36,956 nucleotides of DNA from Betaproteobacteria bacterium (lineage in GTDB: Bacteria > Pseudomonadota > Gammaproteobacteria > Burkholderiales > Rhodocyclaceae): positions 1 to 36,956 of the forward strand of contig CANJXH010000007.1 in the NCBI GenBank assembly GCA_947478755.1. The letters are read 5' to 3'. Position numbers and translations under genes: made by a program. This document shows, piece after piece, positions 2,664-10,578 of the stretch (its first letter is position 1; each line of letters starts with the position of its first letter). The notes under the pieces were generated by a model, which saw only the letters and a list, made by a program, of their open reading frames with translations, made no database searches and was not told where the DNA came from.

Positions 2664-3911
2664 GTGCGTACTGCAACAAGCAAGATTGATCGGCATGGCG
2701 CCGAGAGCCTCCGTGATGAAGGTTCCGAATTGCGATTTCCGCCGTTGCCGGAAATACCGCGTGCGCGCTATCTGGATGCGTCGCTGTTTGATGCCGAGAT
2801 AGACAAGGTATTCCGCCGCTCGTGGCTGGCGGTTGGCCATGTGTCGGAATACAAGTCCGAAGGGAGCTATCGCCTGCTGGATATTCCCTTTGCACCGGTT
2901 GTCGTTGTCAAAGGCAAGGATGGCAAGTTGCGGGCTTTCCTCAATACCTGTCGTCATCGCGCTGCGACGGTACTGAAGGAAAAGGAGGGTTGCGTCAAGA
3001 CGCTGAGTTGCCAGTATCACGGCTGGACCTATGATCTTGCCGGCAAGCTCATCGGCGTCACCAGCCCTGAAAGCTTTGCCGACCTGGACTTTGAAGCGCA
3101 TTCGCTGGTGAGTTTGCGGTGCGAACTTTGGGGTGGCTTTGTCTTCATCAACTTTGATCCCGAGGCACTGCCCCTGCTCGACTGGCTGGCACCGCTGGCG
3201 GATCGCTATGCCTCGATGGTGGTGCCCGACCCCGACAAGCCGTTGCGCATTGCCGCGAAGATGTCGTGGGAGGTCAACTGCAACTGGAAGGCGATGGCCG
3301 AGAATTTTGCCGAGAGCTATCACGTCGAGTACATCCACAGCGAAACCGTGACCAAAATGGTTGATGCGTCGCGTGGCGACTATCACCTGTATCCCGGTGC
3401 GCACGGAACTTTCGTCAATTACTACATTCCGAAGGACGAAATTGCATGGGAGGGATCCACCGCAACCGTCGCTGACAGGCTGCCCGAAATGCCGGGTATG
3501 ACAGATCCGAAGTTTGATGCCGCAGCCTATTCGAATCTCTGCTTTCCCAACAGTTTTTTCAACTTCCTGAAGTCCGGACACAACCTCATACAGATATGGC
3601 CGCATGACGTTGATCATTGCCGGCTTGATCTCACCTTGTTCGGTGTGGACTGGGGTGATGGCCCGCGTCCTGCAGAGTGGGAAGCGATTTGCGCGGGGTA
3701 TGAGGTGGTTGAGCTGGAAGACATCAGTTGCATGTCATCCATCCAGCAGTCTCTGAGGGCCGACCCGGATCGTGGCGTTCCGTTCGGTGCGCGCGAAGCC
3801 CTGCTTTACCAAATGCACGCCGAGATCGACAGGCTTGTGGGCAGCAAGAACATTGCGTCTCGACTTCGCGTGCCGGATATCGACTTGCTCAACAAGTTCA
3901 TCGTCGATTGA
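2664..3911 (+). CDS. Rieske [2Fe-2S] ring-hydroxylating oxygenase, alpha subunit
   Basis: A 415-residue oxygenase with a GTG start preceded by AAGGGGAG. The N-terminal Rieske domain ligates the 2Fe-2S cluster with C96-x-H98 and C116-x2-H119. The C-terminal catalytic domain carries the mononuclear iron ligands in AENFAESYHVEYIH (H220 and H225); an acidic ligand is probably D353 or its neighbour in LEDISC. Length and layout match single-component-type alpha subunits such as those acting on quaternary amines, aromatics or steroid side chains. The substrate cannot be assigned. No small beta subunit or reductase gene is next to it, so electrons must come from elsewhere; the Rieske ferredoxin at 24120-24485 is a candidate partner only by inference. 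It is divergent from the sulfotransferase gene. Confidence 0.88.
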   Translation: MRTATSKIDRHGAESLRDEGSELRFPPLPEIPRARYLDASLFDAEIDKVFRRSWLAVGHVSEYKSEGSYRLLDIPFAPVVVVKGKDGKLRAFLNTCRHRAATVLKEKEGCVKTLSCQYHGWTYDLAGKLIGVTSPESFADLDFEAHSLVSLRCELWGGFVFINFDPEALPLLDWLAPLADRYASMVVPDPDKPLRIAAKMSWEVNCNWKAMAENFAESYHVEYIHSETVTKMVDASRGDYHLYPGAHGTFVNYYIPKDEIAWEGSTATVADRLPEMPGMTDPKFDAAAYSNLCFPNSFFNFLKSGHNLIQIWPHDVDHCRLDLTLFGVDWGDGPRPAEWEAICAGYEVVELEDISCMSSIQQSLRADPDRGVPFGAREALLYQMHAEIDRLVGSKNIASRLRVPDIDLLNKFIVD

Positions 3912-3950
3912 TCGATGGTTTCGGAATCGGATTTGATCAGGGATGGAAAA

Positions 3951-4016
3951 ATGGGAAGGCAGGAAGAGCTGAACATGGACATCATCCGCAAGAACCTGTT
4001 TTGGCCTGACGACTGA
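3951..4016 (+). CDS. Possible 21-residue small ORF after the oxygenase gene
   Basis: An ATG at 3951 opens a 21-codon frame ending in IIRKNLFWPDD and a TGA at 4014-4016, 40 bases past the oxygenase stop. A second ATG inside, at 3975, would give 13 residues and has a GGAAGAG a little upstream. The peptide resembles no family I know. It could be translated from the oxygenase mRNA, or it could be chance. The evidence is weak. Confidence 0.15.
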   Translation: MGRQEELNMDIIRKNLFWPDD

Positions 4017-4030
4017 GCTGCGGGTTTCCG

Positions 4031-4056
4031 GGCTGCGGTTGCCCGCTGCCGCAGCC
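4031..4056 (+). terminator. Hairpin between oxygenase gene and imuA promoter
   Basis: GGCTGCGG (4031-4038) and CCGCAGCC (4049-4056) form a perfect 8-bp stem with a 10-base loop. No run of T follows, so it is a poor intrinsic terminator. Its place between the oxygenase gene and the imuA promoter suggests it separates the two units. Confidence 0.35.
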
Positions 4057-4070
4057 TTGCACCATACAAG

Positions 4071-4099
4071 TTGACAGGTTACCGTTCGATAACTATCAT
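4071..4099 (+). promoter_or_regulatory. Sigma70-type promoter of imuA-imuB-dnaE2
   Basis: A perfect -35 box TTGACA lies at 4071-4076. After exactly 17 bases comes TATCAT at 4094-4099, five of six matches to the -10 consensus. Transcription would start near 4106 and leave a leader of about 98 bases before the imuA ATG. The strong core promoter overlaps two operator-like dyads, as expected for a tightly repressed damage-inducible promoter. Confidence 0.7.
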
Positions 4100-4117
4100 G
4101 GTTATCCATCGGTAACC
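4077..4117. promoter_or_regulatory. Two LexA-like operators in the imuA promoter
   Basis: Two 18-bp imperfect palindromes sit 23 bp apart, at 4077-4094 and 4100-4117. Both begin GGTTA and carry TAAC in the second half. The second fits GGTTN2CN4GN3ACC exactly; the first differs only in its last base. I remember that pattern as the LexA site of Geobacter sulfurreducens. The usual betaproteobacterial LexA box, CTGT-N8-ACAG, was not seen here. Operator 1 fills the spacer between the -35 and -10 boxes and operator 2 covers the likely transcription start. Both positions would block RNA polymerase. No lexA gene lies in the window, so identity of the repressor is inference. Confidence 0.65.
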
Positions 4118-4203
4118 AAAGGCGTGCAAAGATGTTTTCCCCCTGCTGTGACGAAGCATCCGCTTCCCGCTTGCCGCATTGATCGCGTATTGATCTGGAC
4201 ACC

Positions 4204-4941
4204 ATGGAATCGGTTGTGCTCAGTGACGTGCTGGCCCGTCCCGACATCCGCCGTGGCGGATGTTTTGTCGATGCTGCGTTGCCGGCCATCGGCAGCGGCT
4301 TTGCGGCACTGGATGCCGAACTGCCAGGCCGCGGCTGGCCGCGCGGCGCGCTCACCGAACTGCTGTGCGATGGCATCGGCCTCGGCGAAGTCAGCCTGCT
4401 ACAGCCGGCTCTCAAACAGCTTTGCGCGAACGATGGCTGGCTGGTGCTGATTGCACCGCCGCATGGCCTGCAGGCAAGTGCGTGGCGCGCTGCGGGCATC
4501 CCGCTGGAACGCCTGCTGATCGTGAATGCAGTCTCAGGCAGGCAGGGAACACGCGACGTCTTGTGGGCAGCCGAACAGGCTTTCAACAGCGATGCGCCGG
4601 CAGCAGTGGTGTGCTGGAGCAGCATGGCCAATGCCAGGGCGGTACACCGTCTGCAGTTGGCCGCCACGGCAAGCCATGCAGCGGGTTTTCTGTTCCGCCC
4701 GTCACGCGCCGCCAGCGATTCTTCGGCCGCGCCGCTGCGCCTGCAACTGGGCAATGCAAACAACATGCTCGGCATCCGCATCCTCAAACGGCGAGGCCCG
4801 CCGGCAACGCAGGCCTTGCACCTCGCCGTGTCGCGTCCCGCGCCCTGGCGCACCCATGTCAAACACGATGCCGACGCTCTGGCTCGCCCTTTGCCTGCCG
4901 CAACTGCCGCTCGACGCCTCCCCGCATCCGTCAACGAGTAG
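4204..4941 (+). CDS. imuA: ImuA, translesion mutagenesis accessory protein
   Basis: A 245-residue RecA/SulA-like protein, first gene of an imuA-imuB-dnaE2 cassette. The segment GSGFAALDAELPGRGWPRGA followed by TELL is the typical ImuA opening. At the place where RecA has its Walker A loop the sequence reads CDGIGLGEVSLL, with no lysine-threonine pair, so ATP binding in the RecA manner is doubtful; this is usual for ImuA. In characterised cassettes ImuA supports ImuB and DnaE2 in damage-induced mutagenesis in the cytoplasm. No clear Shine-Dalgarno sequence precedes the ATG. The 3' end overlaps imuB by about 74 bases, which suggests coupled translation. Expression is probably SOS-controlled from the promoter at 4071. 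Confidence 0.85.
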   Translation: MESVVLSDVLARPDIRRGGCFVDAALPAIGSGFAALDAELPGRGWPRGALTELLCDGIGLGEVSLLQPALKQLCANDGWLVLIAPPHGLQASAWRAAGIPLERLLIVNAVSGRQGTRDVLWAAEQAFNSDAPAAVVCWSSMANARAVHRLQLAATASHAAGFLFRPSRAASDSSAAPLRLQLGNANNMLGIRILKRRGPPATQALHLAVSRPAPWRTHVKHDADALARPLPAATAARRLPASVNE

Positions 4942-6325
4942 CGTTGTCGTGGAGCAGGGCAGGGTGATTGCCTGTGATACGCAGGCAACCGAGGCCGGAG
5001 TGCGGGGGGGGATGAAACCCTCGCTGGTACGTTCGTTGGCAGCAGACGCCGTGATATTGCAGCGCGATGTCGCTGCCGAAGCCGCCGCACTCGATGCGCT
5101 GGCCTGCTGGGCGGGCGCCTTCACGCCGCGCGTCTGCGTGGTGCCGCAGAAGGGTCTGCTGCTGGAAGTGGGGAGCTGCCTCACCTTGTTTGGCGGTCTC
5201 GATTCGCTGTGGGGCAAGGTACTCGCCGGTATCCGGGCACAGGGCTTTGTCGTGCGCAGCGCGGTGGCGCCCGTTGCACAAGGCGCGTTATGGCTGGCAC
5301 TGGTGCGTGATGACATGCCCCGTGTCGATGGCCCACGCCTGCGGCCCGCGCTGGATGCCCTTCCGCTCTGCGATCTGGCAACGGTGCTGACAGCGAACGT
5401 CGTTGAACGGCTTGAAAGCTTCGGCTTGCAGACGCTCGGCGAAGCGCGCCGCCAACCCTCCGCGGCACTGACACGACGCATCGGCAGTCTGGCGATGACA
5501 AGAATGGCGCGTGCTTACGGCGAGTTGGCCGAGGCGCAGCAGGAGTTCGTGTTTCCGCAGCAGTTCGTTCACGGCGTCGAGTTGCCCGCACCGATCGAGA
5601 ATGCCGAGGCGCTGCTGTTTGTTGCTCATCGACTGGTGCAGGCCATGACCGGATGGCTTGGCGCACGGCAATGCGGCATACAGGAGTGCAGCCTGCTGCT
5701 GCTCCACCACCACCGATCGCCGACCGCTGTCGTCTTGCGCTTCGGTGAAACCCAGCGCGATCCGGTTCGCATTGAATGGGTGTTGCGCGAACGCCTGCAG
5801 CAGCTGGACTTGCCGGCACCGGTCGAGGCAGTCAGGCTGGAGGCGAAGCGGGTGCAGCCCTTGCCCGGTCGAAGCGCGGCCTTGCTGCCCGGCGGGGCGG
5901 CGCAACATGACGGCATGCCCGCGCTCATCGAACGCCTGCGCGCCAGGATGGGCGAAGCCAATGTCCATGGCCTGATGCTGGAAGCGGACCATCGTCCTGA
6001 GCGCAATGGCCGCGCGGCGGGCAGCGGCAAAAGCGGCGCAGCCTTTGCGCATGTACCACGACCGCTTTTCCTGCTGGCAACACCGCAGCTGCTGGGCGAG
6101 TACGACGGCAGGCCGCAATACGATGGCCCCCTGCTCCTGCTCTCGGATCGGGAGCGCATCGAATCCGGTTGGTGGGATGGCGGCGAGCGGGATGCGGAAA
6201 AGACCTGCAGTGGAGACATCCGTCGCGATTATTTTGTCGCGCTGTCGCCGTCACAACGCTGGCTCTGGATCTATCGCGAGTGCGCTGTTCCGGGCGGCTG
6301 GTATCTGCATGGTTATTTTTCGTGA
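4868..6325 (+). CDS. imuB: ImuB, inactive Y-family polymerase homologue
   Basis: A 485-residue protein of the Y-family DNA polymerase fold. It opens with TLWLALCLPQLPLDA, the hallmark ImuB start; an active Y polymerase would have an aspartate in this strand, so the first metal ligand is missing. The middle KGLLLEVGSCLTLFGG replaces the SxDE region of active enzymes. The segment RPLFLLATPQLL and the ending GWYLHGYFS are typical of the ImuB tail. In the mutasome ImuB is thought to link the beta clamp, ImuA and DnaE2 at lesions. The ATG at 4868 is preferred; 4856 is a possible alternative. It starts inside imuA, and its stop overlaps the GTG start of dnaE2. Confidence 0.87.
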   Translation: MPTLWLALCLPQLPLDASPHPSTSSVVVEQGRVIACDTQATEAGVRGGMKPSLVRSLAADAVILQRDVAAEAAALDALACWAGAFTPRVCVVPQKGLLLEVGSCLTLFGGLDSLWGKVLAGIRAQGFVVRSAVAPVAQGALWLALVRDDMPRVDGPRLRPALDALPLCDLATVLTANVVERLESFGLQTLGEARRQPSAALTRRIGSLAMTRMARAYGELAEAQQEFVFPQQFVHGVELPAPIENAEALLFVAHRLVQAMTGWLGARQCGIQECSLLLLHHHRSPTAVVLRFGETQRDPVRIEWVLRERLQQLDLPAPVEAVRLEAKRVQPLPGRSAALLPGGAAQHDGMPALIERLRARMGEANVHGLMLEADHRPERNGRAAGSGKSGAAFAHVPRPLFLLATPQLLGEYDGRPQYDGPLLLLSDRERIESGWWDGGERDAEKTCSGDIRRDYFVALSPSQRWLWIYRECAVPGGWYLHGYFS

Positions 6326-9300
6326 TCAACGATGCTGCCAAGGGCGCTGGCGAGCTGCCGGATTATGCCGAGCTGCACTGCCTTTCCAACTTCAGTTTTT
6401 TGCGCGGCGCATCGCATGCCGAAGAGCTGGTGAAACGTGCGGCCGAACTGAAGTACCGCGCAATCGCCATTACTGACGAATGTTCGTTTGCCGGCATCGT
6501 TCGTGCGCATGGCGCCGCCAAAGAACACTGCATCAAGCTGCTGATCGGTACAGAGCTGAGTCTGACATGCGGCATGAAGCTGGTGCTGCTGGCAAAGAAT
6601 CGCGCCGGCTACGGCAACCTGTCGGCCATCATCACGCTCGGCCGGCAACGCGCCGACAAGGGCGAGTATCAATTGAGTCGGGGCGACCTCGCCAATGGCA
6701 TGCCCGATTGCCTGGCCTTGTGGTTGGCGCCAGCCGATGCGCAGGAAAGCGACGGTCTCTGGTTGCACGGCTGCTTTGTTGACCGTGCCTGGATTGGCTT
6801 CGAGCGTCACCTGTTGCCGGATGACAGGCAACGCCTTGCCCATCTGCGCGCGATCGGTCGGGCGACCGGCCTGCCGCTGGTGGCGAGCAGCGATGTGCAT
6901 ATGCATGTCCGCGCCCGCCGCCCTTTGCAGGACATGGTCACCGCCTTGCGCCTCAACAACAGCATCGACCAGGCCGGTTATGCCTTGTTTGCCAATGGCG
7001 AGCGCCATCTGCGTTCGCGTTTGCGTCTGGCGCAGTTGTATCCGGCGGACCTGCTAGCCGAGACCTTGCGCGTGGCGGACCTGTGCGAGTTTTCCCTTGA
7101 TGAATTGAAGTACGAATATCCCGACGAGGTAGTCCCGCACGGCGAAACGCCGACCAGCTATCTGCGCCATGAAACGGAGAAGGGACTGTGCATCCGCTAT
7201 CCTTCTGGAATACCGCAAGGGGTGCGCGAACAGGTCGAGCACGAGCTGGCGCTGATCCGCAAGCTTGGGTATGAACCCTACTTTCTTACCGTGTACGACA
7301 TCGTCACGTTCGCGCGCAGCCATAACATTCTTTGTCAGGGGCGCGGCTCGGCGGCGAATTCGGTGGTGTGCTATGCCTTGCGGATCACGGCGGTGGACCC
7401 CAATCGTGCCAACCTCCTGTTTGGGCGATTCATCTCCGAAGAACGCAATGAGCCGCCTGACATTGATGTCGACTTCGAACATCAACGCCGCGAAGAAGTG
7501 ATCCAGTACATCTATCAAAAATACGGCCGCGACCGCGCCGCGCTGACAGCGACGGTGATCTGCTATCGCACCCGGTCTGCACTGCGCGACACTGGCCGTG
7601 CGCTTGGAATCGACCGCGACAAGCTGGACGCACTGACCTCGTCGCTTGCGTGGTGGGACAAGCCCGAAGAGTGGCCGCAGCGCTTTGCCGAGGTTGGCCT
7701 CGATCCCAAGAGCCCTCGCGTCACAAAATGGCTGAAGCTGGCGCAGCAGATCAAGGGCTTCCCGCGACACTTGTCGCAGCATGTCGGCGGCTTTGTCATC
7801 AGCCGTGGGCGGCTCGATCGACTGGTGCCGATCGAGAACGCCGCCATGCAAGATCGAAGCGTGATCCAGTGGGACAAGGATGACATCGACGCGCTGGGCC
7901 TGATGAAGGTCGATGTGCTGGCACTGGGCATGCTGAGCGCCATTCGTCGCAGCTTGTCGCTGGTCTCGCTGCAACGGGGACAGTCGTTCGCGATGGAAGA
8001 CATTCCGCCCAAGGATGAACAGGTGTTCGCCATGATTTCGGCTGCCGATACCGTCGGCGTATTCCAGATCGAATCACGGGCGCAGATGTCGATGCTGCCG
8101 CGTTTGCGCCCAAGGAATTTCTACGACCTGGTGATCGAGGTTGCCCTGGTTCGGCCCGGCCCGATCCAGGGCGACATGGTGCATCCCTATTTGCGTCGCC
8201 GGCAGGGACTAGAGCCGGTCAGCTATCCGACCAAGGCAGTGGAGAGAGTACTGGAGCGTACCTTGGGAGTGCCCATCTTCCAGGAGCAGGCAATGGAGCT
8301 ATCGATGGTCGCTGCCGGTTTCACTCCCGGCGAGGCCGACCAGTTGCGGCGCGCCATGGCCGCATGGAAGCGCAAGGGCGGGCTGGGCCCGTTTCGCGAC
8401 AAGCTGATCAATGGCATGACGCAGCGTGGCTATGACATCGAATTTGCCGAAGCCCTGTATCGCCAGTTGCAGGGGTTTGCCGACTATGGCTTTCCCGAAT
8501 CGCATGCGGCCAGCTTTGCCTTGCTGGTCTATGTGTCGGCTTGGCTGAAGCGCCATTACCCGGCAGCATTCCTGACGGGCATGTTGAACTCGTTGCCGAT
8601 GGGCTTCTATTCGGCGTCGCAGCTGATACAGGATGCACGGCGACATGGTGTCGAGGTGCGCCCGGTCGATGTCATGTCGAGCGGATGGGAATGCGCGCTG
8701 GAAGACATTGGCTCGCGCCATCCCGCGGTACGCCTCGGCATGAACCGGGTCAGCGGCATGGCGGCGGATGCGGCGGCGCGCATTGAGGCAGCGCGGGCCT
8801 GCCACCCGTTCGTGAGCGTGGCGGATATGGCGACAAGGGCCGGCTTGCAGAAGCGCGAACTGGAACTGCTGGCCAATGCCAATGCCCTGAGCAGCCTCAG
8901 TGGCCATCGCCGTGCGGCGGCCTGGGCAGCATCTGCGGTATCGGTGCAGGGCGATCTGCTGCAGGGGATCGAGGTGGAAGAGTCCTTGCCGCAATTGCCG
9001 GTGCCGACCGAACCGCAAAACCTGATGGCCGACTATGCCAGCCTCGGCTTCACGTTGGGGCGACATCCCTTGCACCTGCTGCGTCCGTACCTGGAAAAAT
9101 TCCGCTACATCCGTGCTGTGGACCTGCGCGCCATGGCGACGCGACAACTGGCGCGTTGCGTCGGCCTGGTGACCTGCCGGCAACGGCCGGGCACCGCGAC
9201 CGGCGTGATTTTTGTGACACTCGAAGACGAGACCGGCATGGTGAATGTCATCGTGCACAGCCGGCTGGCTGTGCACCAGCGCAAGGAGTTGCTCGGGTCG

Positions 9301-9426
9301 CAGTTGCTGGGCGTGCTGGGCGTGGTGCAGCGCGAGGGCGAAGTGATTCACCTGATCGCCAAGCGTCTGGTGGATCACGACAGCCTGATGGGTGGGTTCA
9401 GCGTGCAGAGCCGGGACTTCTGCTAG
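6322..9426 (+). CDS. dnaE2: DnaE2, error-prone DNA polymerase III alpha subunit
   Basis: A 1034-residue C-family polymerase, the usual DnaE2 length. The GTG start at 6322 overlaps the imuB TGA. The N-terminal PHP domain begins ELHCLSNFSFLRGASH, a DnaE2 signature. The catalytic aspartates are present in PDIDVDFEH (around residues 380-382) and in LMKVDVLALG (around 531), and GRGSAANSVVCYAL lies near 340. A C-terminal OB-fold region includes GVIFVTLEDETGMVNVIV. It copies past DNA lesions at low fidelity together with ImuA and ImuB. As the last gene of the cassette it should be induced with them by DNA damage. The following gene has its own Shine-Dalgarno site and is unrelated in function. Confidence 0.95.
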   Translation: MINDAAKGAGELPDYAELHCLSNFSFLRGASHAEELVKRAAELKYRAIAITDECSFAGIVRAHGAAKEHCIKLLIGTELSLTCGMKLVLLAKNRAGYGNLSAIITLGRQRADKGEYQLSRGDLANGMPDCLALWLAPADAQESDGLWLHGCFVDRAWIGFERHLLPDDRQRLAHLRAIGRATGLPLVASSDVHMHVRARRPLQDMVTALRLNNSIDQAGYALFANGERHLRSRLRLAQLYPADLLAETLRVADLCEFSLDELKYEYPDEVVPHGETPTSYLRHETEKGLCIRYPSGIPQGVREQVEHELALIRKLGYEPYFLTVYDIVTFARSHNILCQGRGSAANSVVCYALRITAVDPNRANLLFGRFISEERNEPPDIDVDFEHQRREEVIQYIYQKYGRDRAALTATVICYRTRSALRDTGRALGIDRDKLDALTSSLAWWDKPEEWPQRFAEVGLDPKSPRVTKWLKLAQQIKGFPRHLSQHVGGFVISRGRLDRLVPIENAAMQDRSVIQWDKDDIDALGLMKVDVLALGMLSAIRRSLSLVSLQRGQSFAMEDIPPKDEQVFAMISAADTVGVFQIESRAQMSMLPRLRPRNFYDLVIEVALVRPGPIQGDMVHPYLRRRQGLEPVSYPTKAVERVLERTLGVPIFQEQAMELSMVAAGFTPGEADQLRRAMAAWKRKGGLGPFRDKLINGMTQRGYDIEFAEALYRQLQGFADYGFPESHAASFALLVYVSAWLKRHYPAAFLTGMLNSLPMGFYSASQLIQDARRHGVEVRPVDVMSSGWECALEDIGSRHPAVRLGMNRVSGMAADAAARIEAARACHPFVSVADMATRAGLQKRELELLANANALSSLSGHRRAAAWAASAVSVQGDLLQGIEVEESLPQLPVPTEPQNLMADYASLGFTLGRHPLHLLRPYLEKFRYIRAVDLRAMATRQLARCVGLVTCRQRPGTATGVIFVTLEDETGMVNVIVHSRLAVHQRKELLGSQLLGVLGVVQREGEVIHLIAKRLVDHDSLMGGFSVQSRDFC

Positions 9427-9483: not shown

Positions 9484-10578
9484 ATGCGTAAGCCTTATCG
9501 CGTCATCATCTGGGGGCCCGGTGGCCTGGGCTCGGTCTGCATGTGGGAAGTGCTGCAGTCGCCGGCCTTCGAGCTGGTGGGCGTGCGTTGCTACGGCGAG
9601 GGCAAGAACGGCGTCGACGCCGGTACGCTGCTCGGCATCGAGCCAGTCGGCATCAAGGCCAGCAACGACATCGAAGCCATGCTCAAAATCGATTGCGACT
9701 GCGTCATCTTCACCGCGCGTGATATGGGCAACTTCAACACCGACGAAGAAATCCTTCGCATCCTCGCTGCCGGCCGCAACATCGTCACGCCCCTGCCGTA
9801 CCACAACGTGCACCTGTTCCGCGATGCCGAATTCAACGCAAAGATCAATGCCGCCTGCGCCAAGGGCGGCTCCGTGTTCCACGCCACGGGCATCGACCCC
9901 GACCTGATCAGCGACCGCGTGCTGATGGGCCTCACCGGCTTGTGCACCGACATCACCTCGATCAAACTGCAGGAGAACTGGGACAGCAGCTACACCGAAC
10001 CCGAGCTGCTGGCGATCGCCGGCTTCGGCAAGACGCTGGAAGAGGCACAGGCCGTGCCGCTCGCGGCGGCCGTGTCGACCAACTTCCTCAAGGCGATTTC
10101 CTATACCGTGGAAAACCTGCTGGGCGTCAAATACGTGCGCGTTGATGAAACCCACGACTACATTCCCGCGCCACACGATATCGTCAGCCACTACATCACC
10201 GTCAAGGCCGGTACCGTCGGCCGGCTCACCCACCGTTTCCGTTGCTGGGTCGAGGGACAGGAAGAGCCCTTCTTCACCATGGAATACAACTGGGTCATGG
10301 GTGACGAGATGCTGCCCGAGGGCGTCAAGCCCAAGCAGTACTGGGTGGCCGAGATCGAGGGGCGTCCGTCGCTCAAGATGGCGATCGACCTCACCGCCTC
10401 ACGCAAGCACAACGACCGCTTTTACAACATCGGCAAGTTGCGCACCGAGCCCGGCTACCACGGCACCATGGCGCCCTGCATGCAGGCCATCCCGCATATC
10501 TGTGCGGCGAAGCCCGGCGTGCTGACATCCTTCGGCACCGGCCTGCATTGGATGAAGGACCTGCGCCAGAGCGTATAG
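9484..10578 (+). CDS. Dihydrodipicolinate-reductase-like NAD(P) dehydrogenase
   Basis: A 364-residue protein with an N-terminal Rossmann fold; the dinucleotide loop is WGPGGLGSVCMW at residues 10-21. The pattern of the N-terminal half recalls DapB and 2,4-diaminopentanoate dehydrogenase, and ATGIDPDLISDRVL matches the catalytic-domain entry of that group. The protein is longer than DapB (about 270), so it is not the lysine enzyme. Members of this broad family occur in catabolic clusters of actinobacteria and proteobacteria, mostly without known substrate. AGAGGAG lies 5 bases before the ATG. It is followed 67 bases later by a SnoaL-like gene and may be cotranscribed with it. Substrate unknown. 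Confidence 0.75.
   Translation: MRKPYRVIIWGPGGLGSVCMWEVLQSPAFELVGVRCYGEGKNGVDAGTLLGIEPVGIKASNDIEAMLKIDCDCVIFTARDMGNFNTDEEILRILAAGRNIVTPLPYHNVHLFRDAEFNAKINAACAKGGSVFHATGIDPDLISDRVLMGLTGLCTDITSIKLQENWDSSYTEPELLAIAGFGKTLEEAQAVPLAAAVSTNFLKAISYTVENLLGVKYVRVDETHDYIPAPHDIVSHYITVKAGTVGRLTHRFRCWVEGQEEPFFTMEYNWVMGDEMLPEGVKPKQYWVAEIEGRPSLKMAIDLTASRKHNDRFYNIGKLRTEPGYHGTMAPCMQAIPHICAAKPGVLTSFGTGLHWMKDLRQSV

Follow-up and report, generated by a model that had tools for sequence, protein, structure and literature searches.

A non-canonical LexA of Sideroxydans lithotrophicus and the Gallionellales was reportedly characterized by Sanchez-Alberola et al. in 2015, with the operator GAACGAACGTTC and six target genes. 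In a more general context, LexA motifs vary widely, the duplication of lexA often accompanies motif divergence, and it was postulated that a diverged LexA retakes the network once the primary LexA has been lost (PMC8565304). According to the same source, the LexA motif of Geobacter is GGTT-N10-AACC, and UmuDAb of Acinetobacter and HdiR of Streptococcaceae are S24 repressors of small SOS networks in LexA-less bacteria, acting at umuDC, umuC or recA loci. In Pseudomonas putida, the mutagenesis operon answers to a dedicated LexA, which has a regulon of its own and is encoded in the lexA2-imuA-imuB-imuC cassette (PMC3901139). In the literature searched, which is thin in subscription journals, no paper among those listed dealt with LexA of Rhodocyclales or Rhodocyclaceae or with the repressor family considered below, and LexA together with Sideroxydans led to a paper on Ferrovum, judging by its entry.

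The locus studied here belongs to contig C7 of a draft genome (G000; 2.63 Mb, 193 contigs, 95.87% complete), and the whole analysed stretch of this contig, 36,956 nucleotides, is referred to as the window. On its forward strand, the window contains imuA (4204..4941, 245 aa; NF033429 ImuA equivalog, 188.3 bits against a cut-off of 150), imuB (4868..6325, 485 aa), overlapping the end of imuA, and the gene of an error-prone DNA polymerase, dnaE2/imuC (6322..9426; NF004225, 1494.8 bits against a cut-off of 939), whose GTG start, as read from the sequence, overlaps the imuB stop. ImuB gives weak matches to Y-family polymerases, and its Pfam score for this family is just under the cut-off (22.9 versus 23.2); its identity is 45–57% in 10 of the 11 examined loci with adjacent imuA and imuB and 32% in the eleventh. 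The closest ImuA and ImuB matches within the family genomes are 62% and 57% identical. The G+C content is 60–66% across the cassette and 52–63% in the surrounding bins, a difference that says little about a foreign origin by composition. The cassette lies between likely catabolic genes, namely a Rieske-type oxygenase (sub-cut-off matches, window 2664-3911) before it and a dehydrogenase (window 9484-10578, with a sub-cut-off match to 2,4-diaminopentanoate dehydrogenase) after it.

All three cassette genes stand together downstream of putative LexA-type operators. The promoter at 4071-4099 consists of the –35 hexamer TTGACA (4071..4076, forward strand), a 17-bp spacer and the –10 hexamer TATCAT (4094..4099, forward strand), and 11 of its 12 hexamer bases are those of the consensus, in agreement with the near-consensus promoter claimed in the preliminary description; one consensus-like promoter was found in 3850-4300, against a shuffle mean of 0.2. 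Operator 1, GGTTACCGTTCGATAACT (4077..4094, forward strand), occupies the spacer, and its final T also opens the –10 hexamer, while operator 2, GGTTATCCATCGGTAACC (4100..4117, forward strand), is placed 23 bp further downstream and covers the expected start site. The two dyads proposed earlier were found again, operator 1 with one mismatch to GGTTN2CN4GN3ACC and operator 2 with none, and the simpler outline GGTT-N10-AACC is likewise exact in operator 2 and has one mismatch in operator 1. The base that operator 1 seems to miss is this T of the –10 hexamer; as 79 of the 83 scored repressor-family promoters likewise have T at the end of dyad 1, it belongs to the design. The canonical box CTGT-N8-ACAG is absent from the window in its exact form, and the nearest one-mismatch form is situated at 5227, 1.1 kb downstream.

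Taken one at a time, such dyads are not above chance. One-mismatch dyads number 9 in the 36,956-nt window versus a shuffle mean of 7.39; a single dyad with no more than two mismatches gives an uninformative 1109 matches per strand in the genome versus 1203 for the control; the strict dyad pattern RGTWNYCNNNNGRNWACY, picked after the four operator sites had been seen, occurs at 7 places in the genome versus 11 for the reversed-pattern control. Four of these seven places form two tandem pairs, one in the window promoter and another on contig C47, and the remaining three include two inside reading frames and one just past a reading frame. A 47-bp tandem pattern, derived from these two promoters with a fixed 23-bp pitch and up to three mismatches allowed, recovered only the same two promoters in this genome, where lone, weaker or differently spaced sites may also exist. 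In 395 family genomes it was found at 24 places in 20 genomes, both design promoters counted, and every one of these places starts with TTGAC; the reversed control gave 0. It is the tandem arrangement, not the individual dyads, that exceeds chance.

The pair on contig C47 precedes the gene of P0001 (G000:C47:14413-15003, forward strand), a protein of 196 aa and the only S24-peptidase protein found in the assembly. Its dyads (C47:14358-14375 and C47:14381-14398) fit the strict pattern and start 55 and 32 bp upstream of the start codon, so that the gene appears to be autoregulated through putative operators in its own promoter. Both promoters have a common layout of TTGAC-N, dyad, 5-base spacer and dyad, with TATCAT in each. 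A genome scan for a site before lexA, as suggested in the preliminary description, ends at this same tandem pair before the sole LexA-like gene, and the proposal that the lineage has a LexA of changed specificity gains support from it, as judged from the operators. The window and C47 promoters are alike in 36 of 47 bases, with flanks alike no more than by chance; recent copying of the promoter between C7 and C47 is therefore unsupported, and the operators look kept by selection. Certain GGTT-class promoters from elsewhere share 28–38 of 47 bases with each of the two, which hence match by operator class and not base for base.

P0001 gave 84.3 bits with PF00717, while the LexA winged helix-turn-helix (wHTH) model PF01726 had no match anywhere in the assembly, P0001 included. 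Nevertheless, a wHTH was predicted in its structure (helices 7-21, 27-34 and 38-50, strands 54-56 and 63-65, mean pLDDT 80.4), the best PDB fold matches of the predicted structure are LexA proteins, and the Ala81-Gly82 cleavage site and the Ser117/Lys154 catalytic pair are invariant in an alignment of 24 sequences. The score with the LexA equivalog TIGR00498 is 92.2 bits, below the cut-off of 110.95, which weakens the view of P0001 as a standard LexA, not the view that it works like LexA. Its best matches, 71% identical, come from records titled Rhodocyclaceae and Sulfurimicrobium. Loci titled Gallionella or Sideroxydans (L113, L119 and L130 among them; strain ES-1 was not among the titles) are 51–55% identical. 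A search of plasmid records gave at least 5000 matches, and among the matches listed all were below 60% identity, the best being 37.7%.

The distribution of the tandem pattern in the 395 family genomes follows that of P0001-type genes. Of its 24 places, 21 precede such a gene (P0001's own included), one is the window promoter before imuA, and two intact-looking ones (L204 = G341:C48 and L213 = G361:C104) stand before apparent broken remnants of P0001-type lexA. ImuA matches were obtained in 221 of the 395 genomes, and the best 30 of these loci, the window included, were examined. With a canonical-type lexA upstream (14 of 30 loci), CTGT-N8-ACAG was present in all 14 and tandem dyads in none; with a P0001-type lexA upstream (6 of 30), tandem dyads were present in all six and CTGT-N8-ACAG in none. 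The ten loci in which no lexA was found within 1.5 kb comprise five with CTGT-N8-ACAG, four with neither operator and the window, alone in having tandem dyads. The statement that lexA2 is not attached here was thus correct: the 1.5 kb preceding imuA contain no lexA-like match, visual inspection of 4118-4203 in all three forward frames revealed no lexA remnant, and the repressor gene lies on C47. The related suggestion that the cassette brought its own regulation along holds for the relatives, in which P0001-type lexA stands upstream at six of the 30 loci, but not of the present cassette, the candidate regulator of which is encoded in trans. Such a detachment of repressor and cassette was encountered once among the best 30 of 221 imuA loci and the 24 tandem places.

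Several relatives of P0001 have a second S24 (UmuD-like) frame and umuC downstream. Four imuA promoters with neither operator (L240, L243, L245 and L246, from G110, G219, G237 and G252, all of genus code g61) have in common, about 85 bp upstream of imuA, the sequence TTGACACCC(A/G)CGCC(T/C)CAGCGACAACAATG. At G017:C53:64135-65520 (L056, L148), imuB and dnaE2 matches occur and imuA was undetected.

Canonical LexA is widespread in the family, PF01726 being matched in 148 of 199 genomes. Among 28 genomes with a P0001-type gene (at least 51% identity over at least 100 residues; G182, whose match spans 59 residues at the end of a contig, was omitted), PF01726 is matched strongly (E below 1e-18) in 11, while 15 lack such a match and two (G137, G158) are unclear. 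The 15 include the single-contig genomes G023, G080 and G083, so the absence of standard LexA is not just a draft artefact. In the genus-mate G068 (2 contigs, 97% complete), no match to PF01726, P0001, ImuA or ImuB was obtained.

As regards the size of the network, a changed regulon reaching recA, which had been considered earlier, was not found. The 5' end of recA in this genome (L049, G000:C72:1-165) has neither the dyad nor CTGT-N8-ACAG, none of the 24 tandem places in the 395 family genomes precedes recA, and CTGT-N8-ACAG is present in 1 of the 26 family recA promoters examined (L049, L166-L188, L190 and L191, 200 bp each), that of G194. Consequently, there is no sign of a broad changed regulon, and RecA itself would not be under P0001-type control. 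Another sequence, CTGTGCCATAAT, is common to many of these 26 promoters. The best reading of the sites is a putative network of the two promoters matching the tandem pattern, devoted to mutagenesis only.

The best 80 loci of the repressor family are titled mostly Rhodocyclaceae (with Sterolibacterium, Sulfuritalea and Propionivibrio), together with Gallionella, Sideroxydans and Nitrosomonadales; a few have other titles, such as Sulfurimicrobium (71% identical), Planctomycetales, Rhodanobacteraceae and Gammaproteobacteria, and some of the off-group titles may belong to loosely titled draft genomes. A TTGAC-headed dyad pair was the best-scoring one in 78 of these 80 loci, a few second dyads being doubtful and the scan favouring a TTGAC start; the exceptions are L064, which has no upstream DNA, and L133, which has another hexamer. 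For the operator table, 131 loci were reduced to 88 by removing those that matched over fewer than 171 residues or repeated a protein already present, and then to 83 by leaving out L044, L046, L047, L064 and L133, in which no TTGAC-headed pair could be scored. Here, a TTGAC start was required, the best-scoring pair was again taken, and there is doubt about certain second dyads (L103, L140) and about the register of L038.

In most of the 83 rows, the operator type tracks the helix region. The helix F-SKxAARK or F-STPAAKK goes with a GGTT-type dyad, FASKTAARK/KK with a GGTG-type dyad, FASKAAAS with a (T/A)GAACG-type dyad and IASKSWVKA, in relatives from Gallionella and Sideroxydans, with the dyad AGAACGTTCGTTCT; rows outside these four classes are, for example, L034, L040, L042, L043, L086 and L109. 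The dyads in the genome of P0001 are GGTTAYC-N4-GRTAACC-like. Of the 17 rows with a one-residue deletion before the helix, all but L074 and L093 (15 rows) have T at position 4 of the dyad, and T at this position occurs in none of the 66 rows without the deletion. In a tree from which the wHTH columns had been omitted, the deletion and T at position 4 each change four times, with one independent pair on well-supported branches, and the link between them is therefore not proven phylogenetically.

Some members of the family deserve separate mention. Two genomes, G056 (L070, L072, L086) and G078 (L087, L093, L109), have three P0001-type paralogues each plus a canonical-type LexA, and the dyads differ among the paralogues, which makes each trio a natural collection of repressors that may be insulated from one another. 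In L019 and L022, P0001-type lexA is located directly before a UvrD/Rep-like helicase frame, named from its translation. In L073, L092, L100, L033 and L098, the second dyad is approximately the reverse complement of the first (fully so in L073), and a long hairpin of DNA or of the transcript is possible.

In our opinion, the promoter of imuA-imuB-dnaE2 is very probably repressed in trans by the non-canonical LexA P0001 and derepressed by DNA damage together with the P0001 gene. The support at the sequence level is formed by the operators, the promoter, the candidate repressor, its LexA-like predicted fold, the catalytic residues and the same promoter design before relatives. It is improbable that the dyads are incidental and that the promoter is controlled by another regulator or by a canonical LexA missed by the assembly. 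The assembly is indeed an incomplete draft (95.87%, 193 contigs), in which another repressor could be missing, and lone one-mismatch dyads are common by chance; however, the window contains no exact CTGT-N8-ACAG, the tandem pattern (24 places versus 0 in 395 genomes) goes with P0001-type genes, and all 14 examined imuA loci next to a canonical-type lexA carry the canonical box instead. The genus-mate G068 also lacks a PF01726 match, but it lacks imuA and imuB too and so says little about the imuA promoter. Even smaller is the chance that a Geobacter-like donor supplied the cassette together with its operators and that the promoter awaits a Geobacter-type LexA. The dyads do fit the motif GGTT-N10-AACC given for Geobacter in PMC8565304, but a repressor gene with the same operators is present in the genome, its best matches (71%) bear the titles Rhodocyclaceae and Sulfurimicrobium, and GGTT operators occur within a family that, inside one and the same promoter frame, also shows the GGTG and AGAAC types. 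The matches of ImuA (62%) and ImuB (57%), which were sought inside the family, are still compatible with a foreign origin of the cassette genes.

A reading to which we assign a low but appreciable probability is that the S24 protein is a repressor derived from UmuD, similar to UmuDAb of Acinetobacter, and not a LexA, the locus then being a UmuDAb-like mutagenesis switch. The NCBIfam scores of P0001 are near equal (UmuD 84.7 versus LexA 92.2 bits), its PDB sequence matches are mixed, several relatives precede the second S24 frame and umuC, and the visible network is limited to a mutagenic polymerase operon. On the other hand, the TIGR00498 LexA match extends over residues 7-194 and takes in the wHTH, whereas that to UmuD is confined to 80-191; LexA proteins head the fold matches over the whole length, and the Gallionella and Sideroxydans relatives carry the motif said to be that of S. 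lithotrophicus LexA. In mechanism, the LexA and UmuD-derived readings nearly coincide.

Returning to the non-canonical LexA repression of imuA-imuB-dnaE2, the LexA of S. lithotrophicus and the Gallionellales belongs to the same protein family (relatives 51–55% identical) and is likewise a betaproteobacterial LexA unlike the standard one; the promoter frame TTGAC-N-dyad-spacer-dyad is also shared with the Gallionella and Sideroxydans relatives. It differs in the dyad, which is GGTTAYC-N4-GRTAACC-like here and neither AGAACGTTCGTTCT nor the reported operator GAACGAACGTTC, in the turn and helix, F-SKPAARKF in P0001 versus IASKSWVKAI, and in the targets, which here are probably two promoters without recA versus a reported six genes. 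The GGTT-N10-AACC outline resembles that of Geobacter sulfurreducens LexA (PMC8565304), a likeness at the level of the motif, but the GGTT form here sits in a betaproteobacterial series of operator classes. As family members have GGTG- or GGTT-type dyads in the same frame, the likeness, compared at the motif level, is probably convergent. The label "Geobacter-type" given to the operators at the outset therefore describes the motif; the repressor belongs to a family, found mostly in records with betaproteobacterial titles, that has GGTG-, GGTT- and AGAACGTTCGTTCT-type dyads. Like the lexA2 cassette of P. putida (PMC3901139), the present system would place a LexA-type repressor over the same mutagenesis operon, but its repressor gene is outside the operon and encodes the sole S24 protein of the assembly. 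With UmuDAb and HdiR, as presented in PMC8565304, it has in common an S24 repressor, a small network of mutagenic polymerase and the absence of any standard LexA found, the target being different, imuA-imuB-dnaE2. Cassette-specific LexA2 and the drift of LexA motifs are already known; what the present case adds is this class of operator, the separation of repressor gene and cassette, and the natural series of specificities.

By analogy with LexA biology, from which we infer P0001 binding, cooperativity, RecA-triggered cleavage and damage induction, positions 4071-4117 would function as a repressible sigma-70-type promoter of the imuA-imuB-dnaE2 mutasome operon. Two P0001 dimers, made from the C47 locus, would occupy both GGTTAYC-N4-GRTAACC-like dyads and block RNA polymerase, and adjacent dimers, set 23 bp or about 2.2 turns apart, might assist one another. 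Upon DNA damage, RecA filaments would cause self-cleavage of P0001, and its own gene and the mutagenesis operon would be derepressed together, resulting in an autoregulated burst of mutagenic polymerase. The whole is best read as a two-promoter, mutagenesis-only SOS unit, which would be run in trans by a LexA of shifted specificity after the loss of the standard LexA.

In a wider picture, for which we see about even chances, a Rhodocyclaceae LexA family heading umuDC, imuAB-dnaE2 and helicase operons radiated into many specificities within a fixed promoter frame, paralogues with their own dyads share cells (G056, G078), and in the present genome one detached sole survivor of the loss of standard LexA runs a two-promoter SOS, that is, mutagenesis without recA; the one-residue deletion before the helix, going with G to T at dyad position 4, would then be a natural specificity switch. 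LexA operators change often, and the joint change of the protein and its sites is hard to follow. The P0001 family is a dense natural series: its operators fall into four or more classes, one cell may contain several paralogues, and the promoter frame is fixed, which lets helix residues be paired with operator bases. The genome itself looks like the stage postulated in PMC8565304, in which the primary LexA has been lost and a diverged LexA retains a tiny network, in this case one for mutagenesis only.
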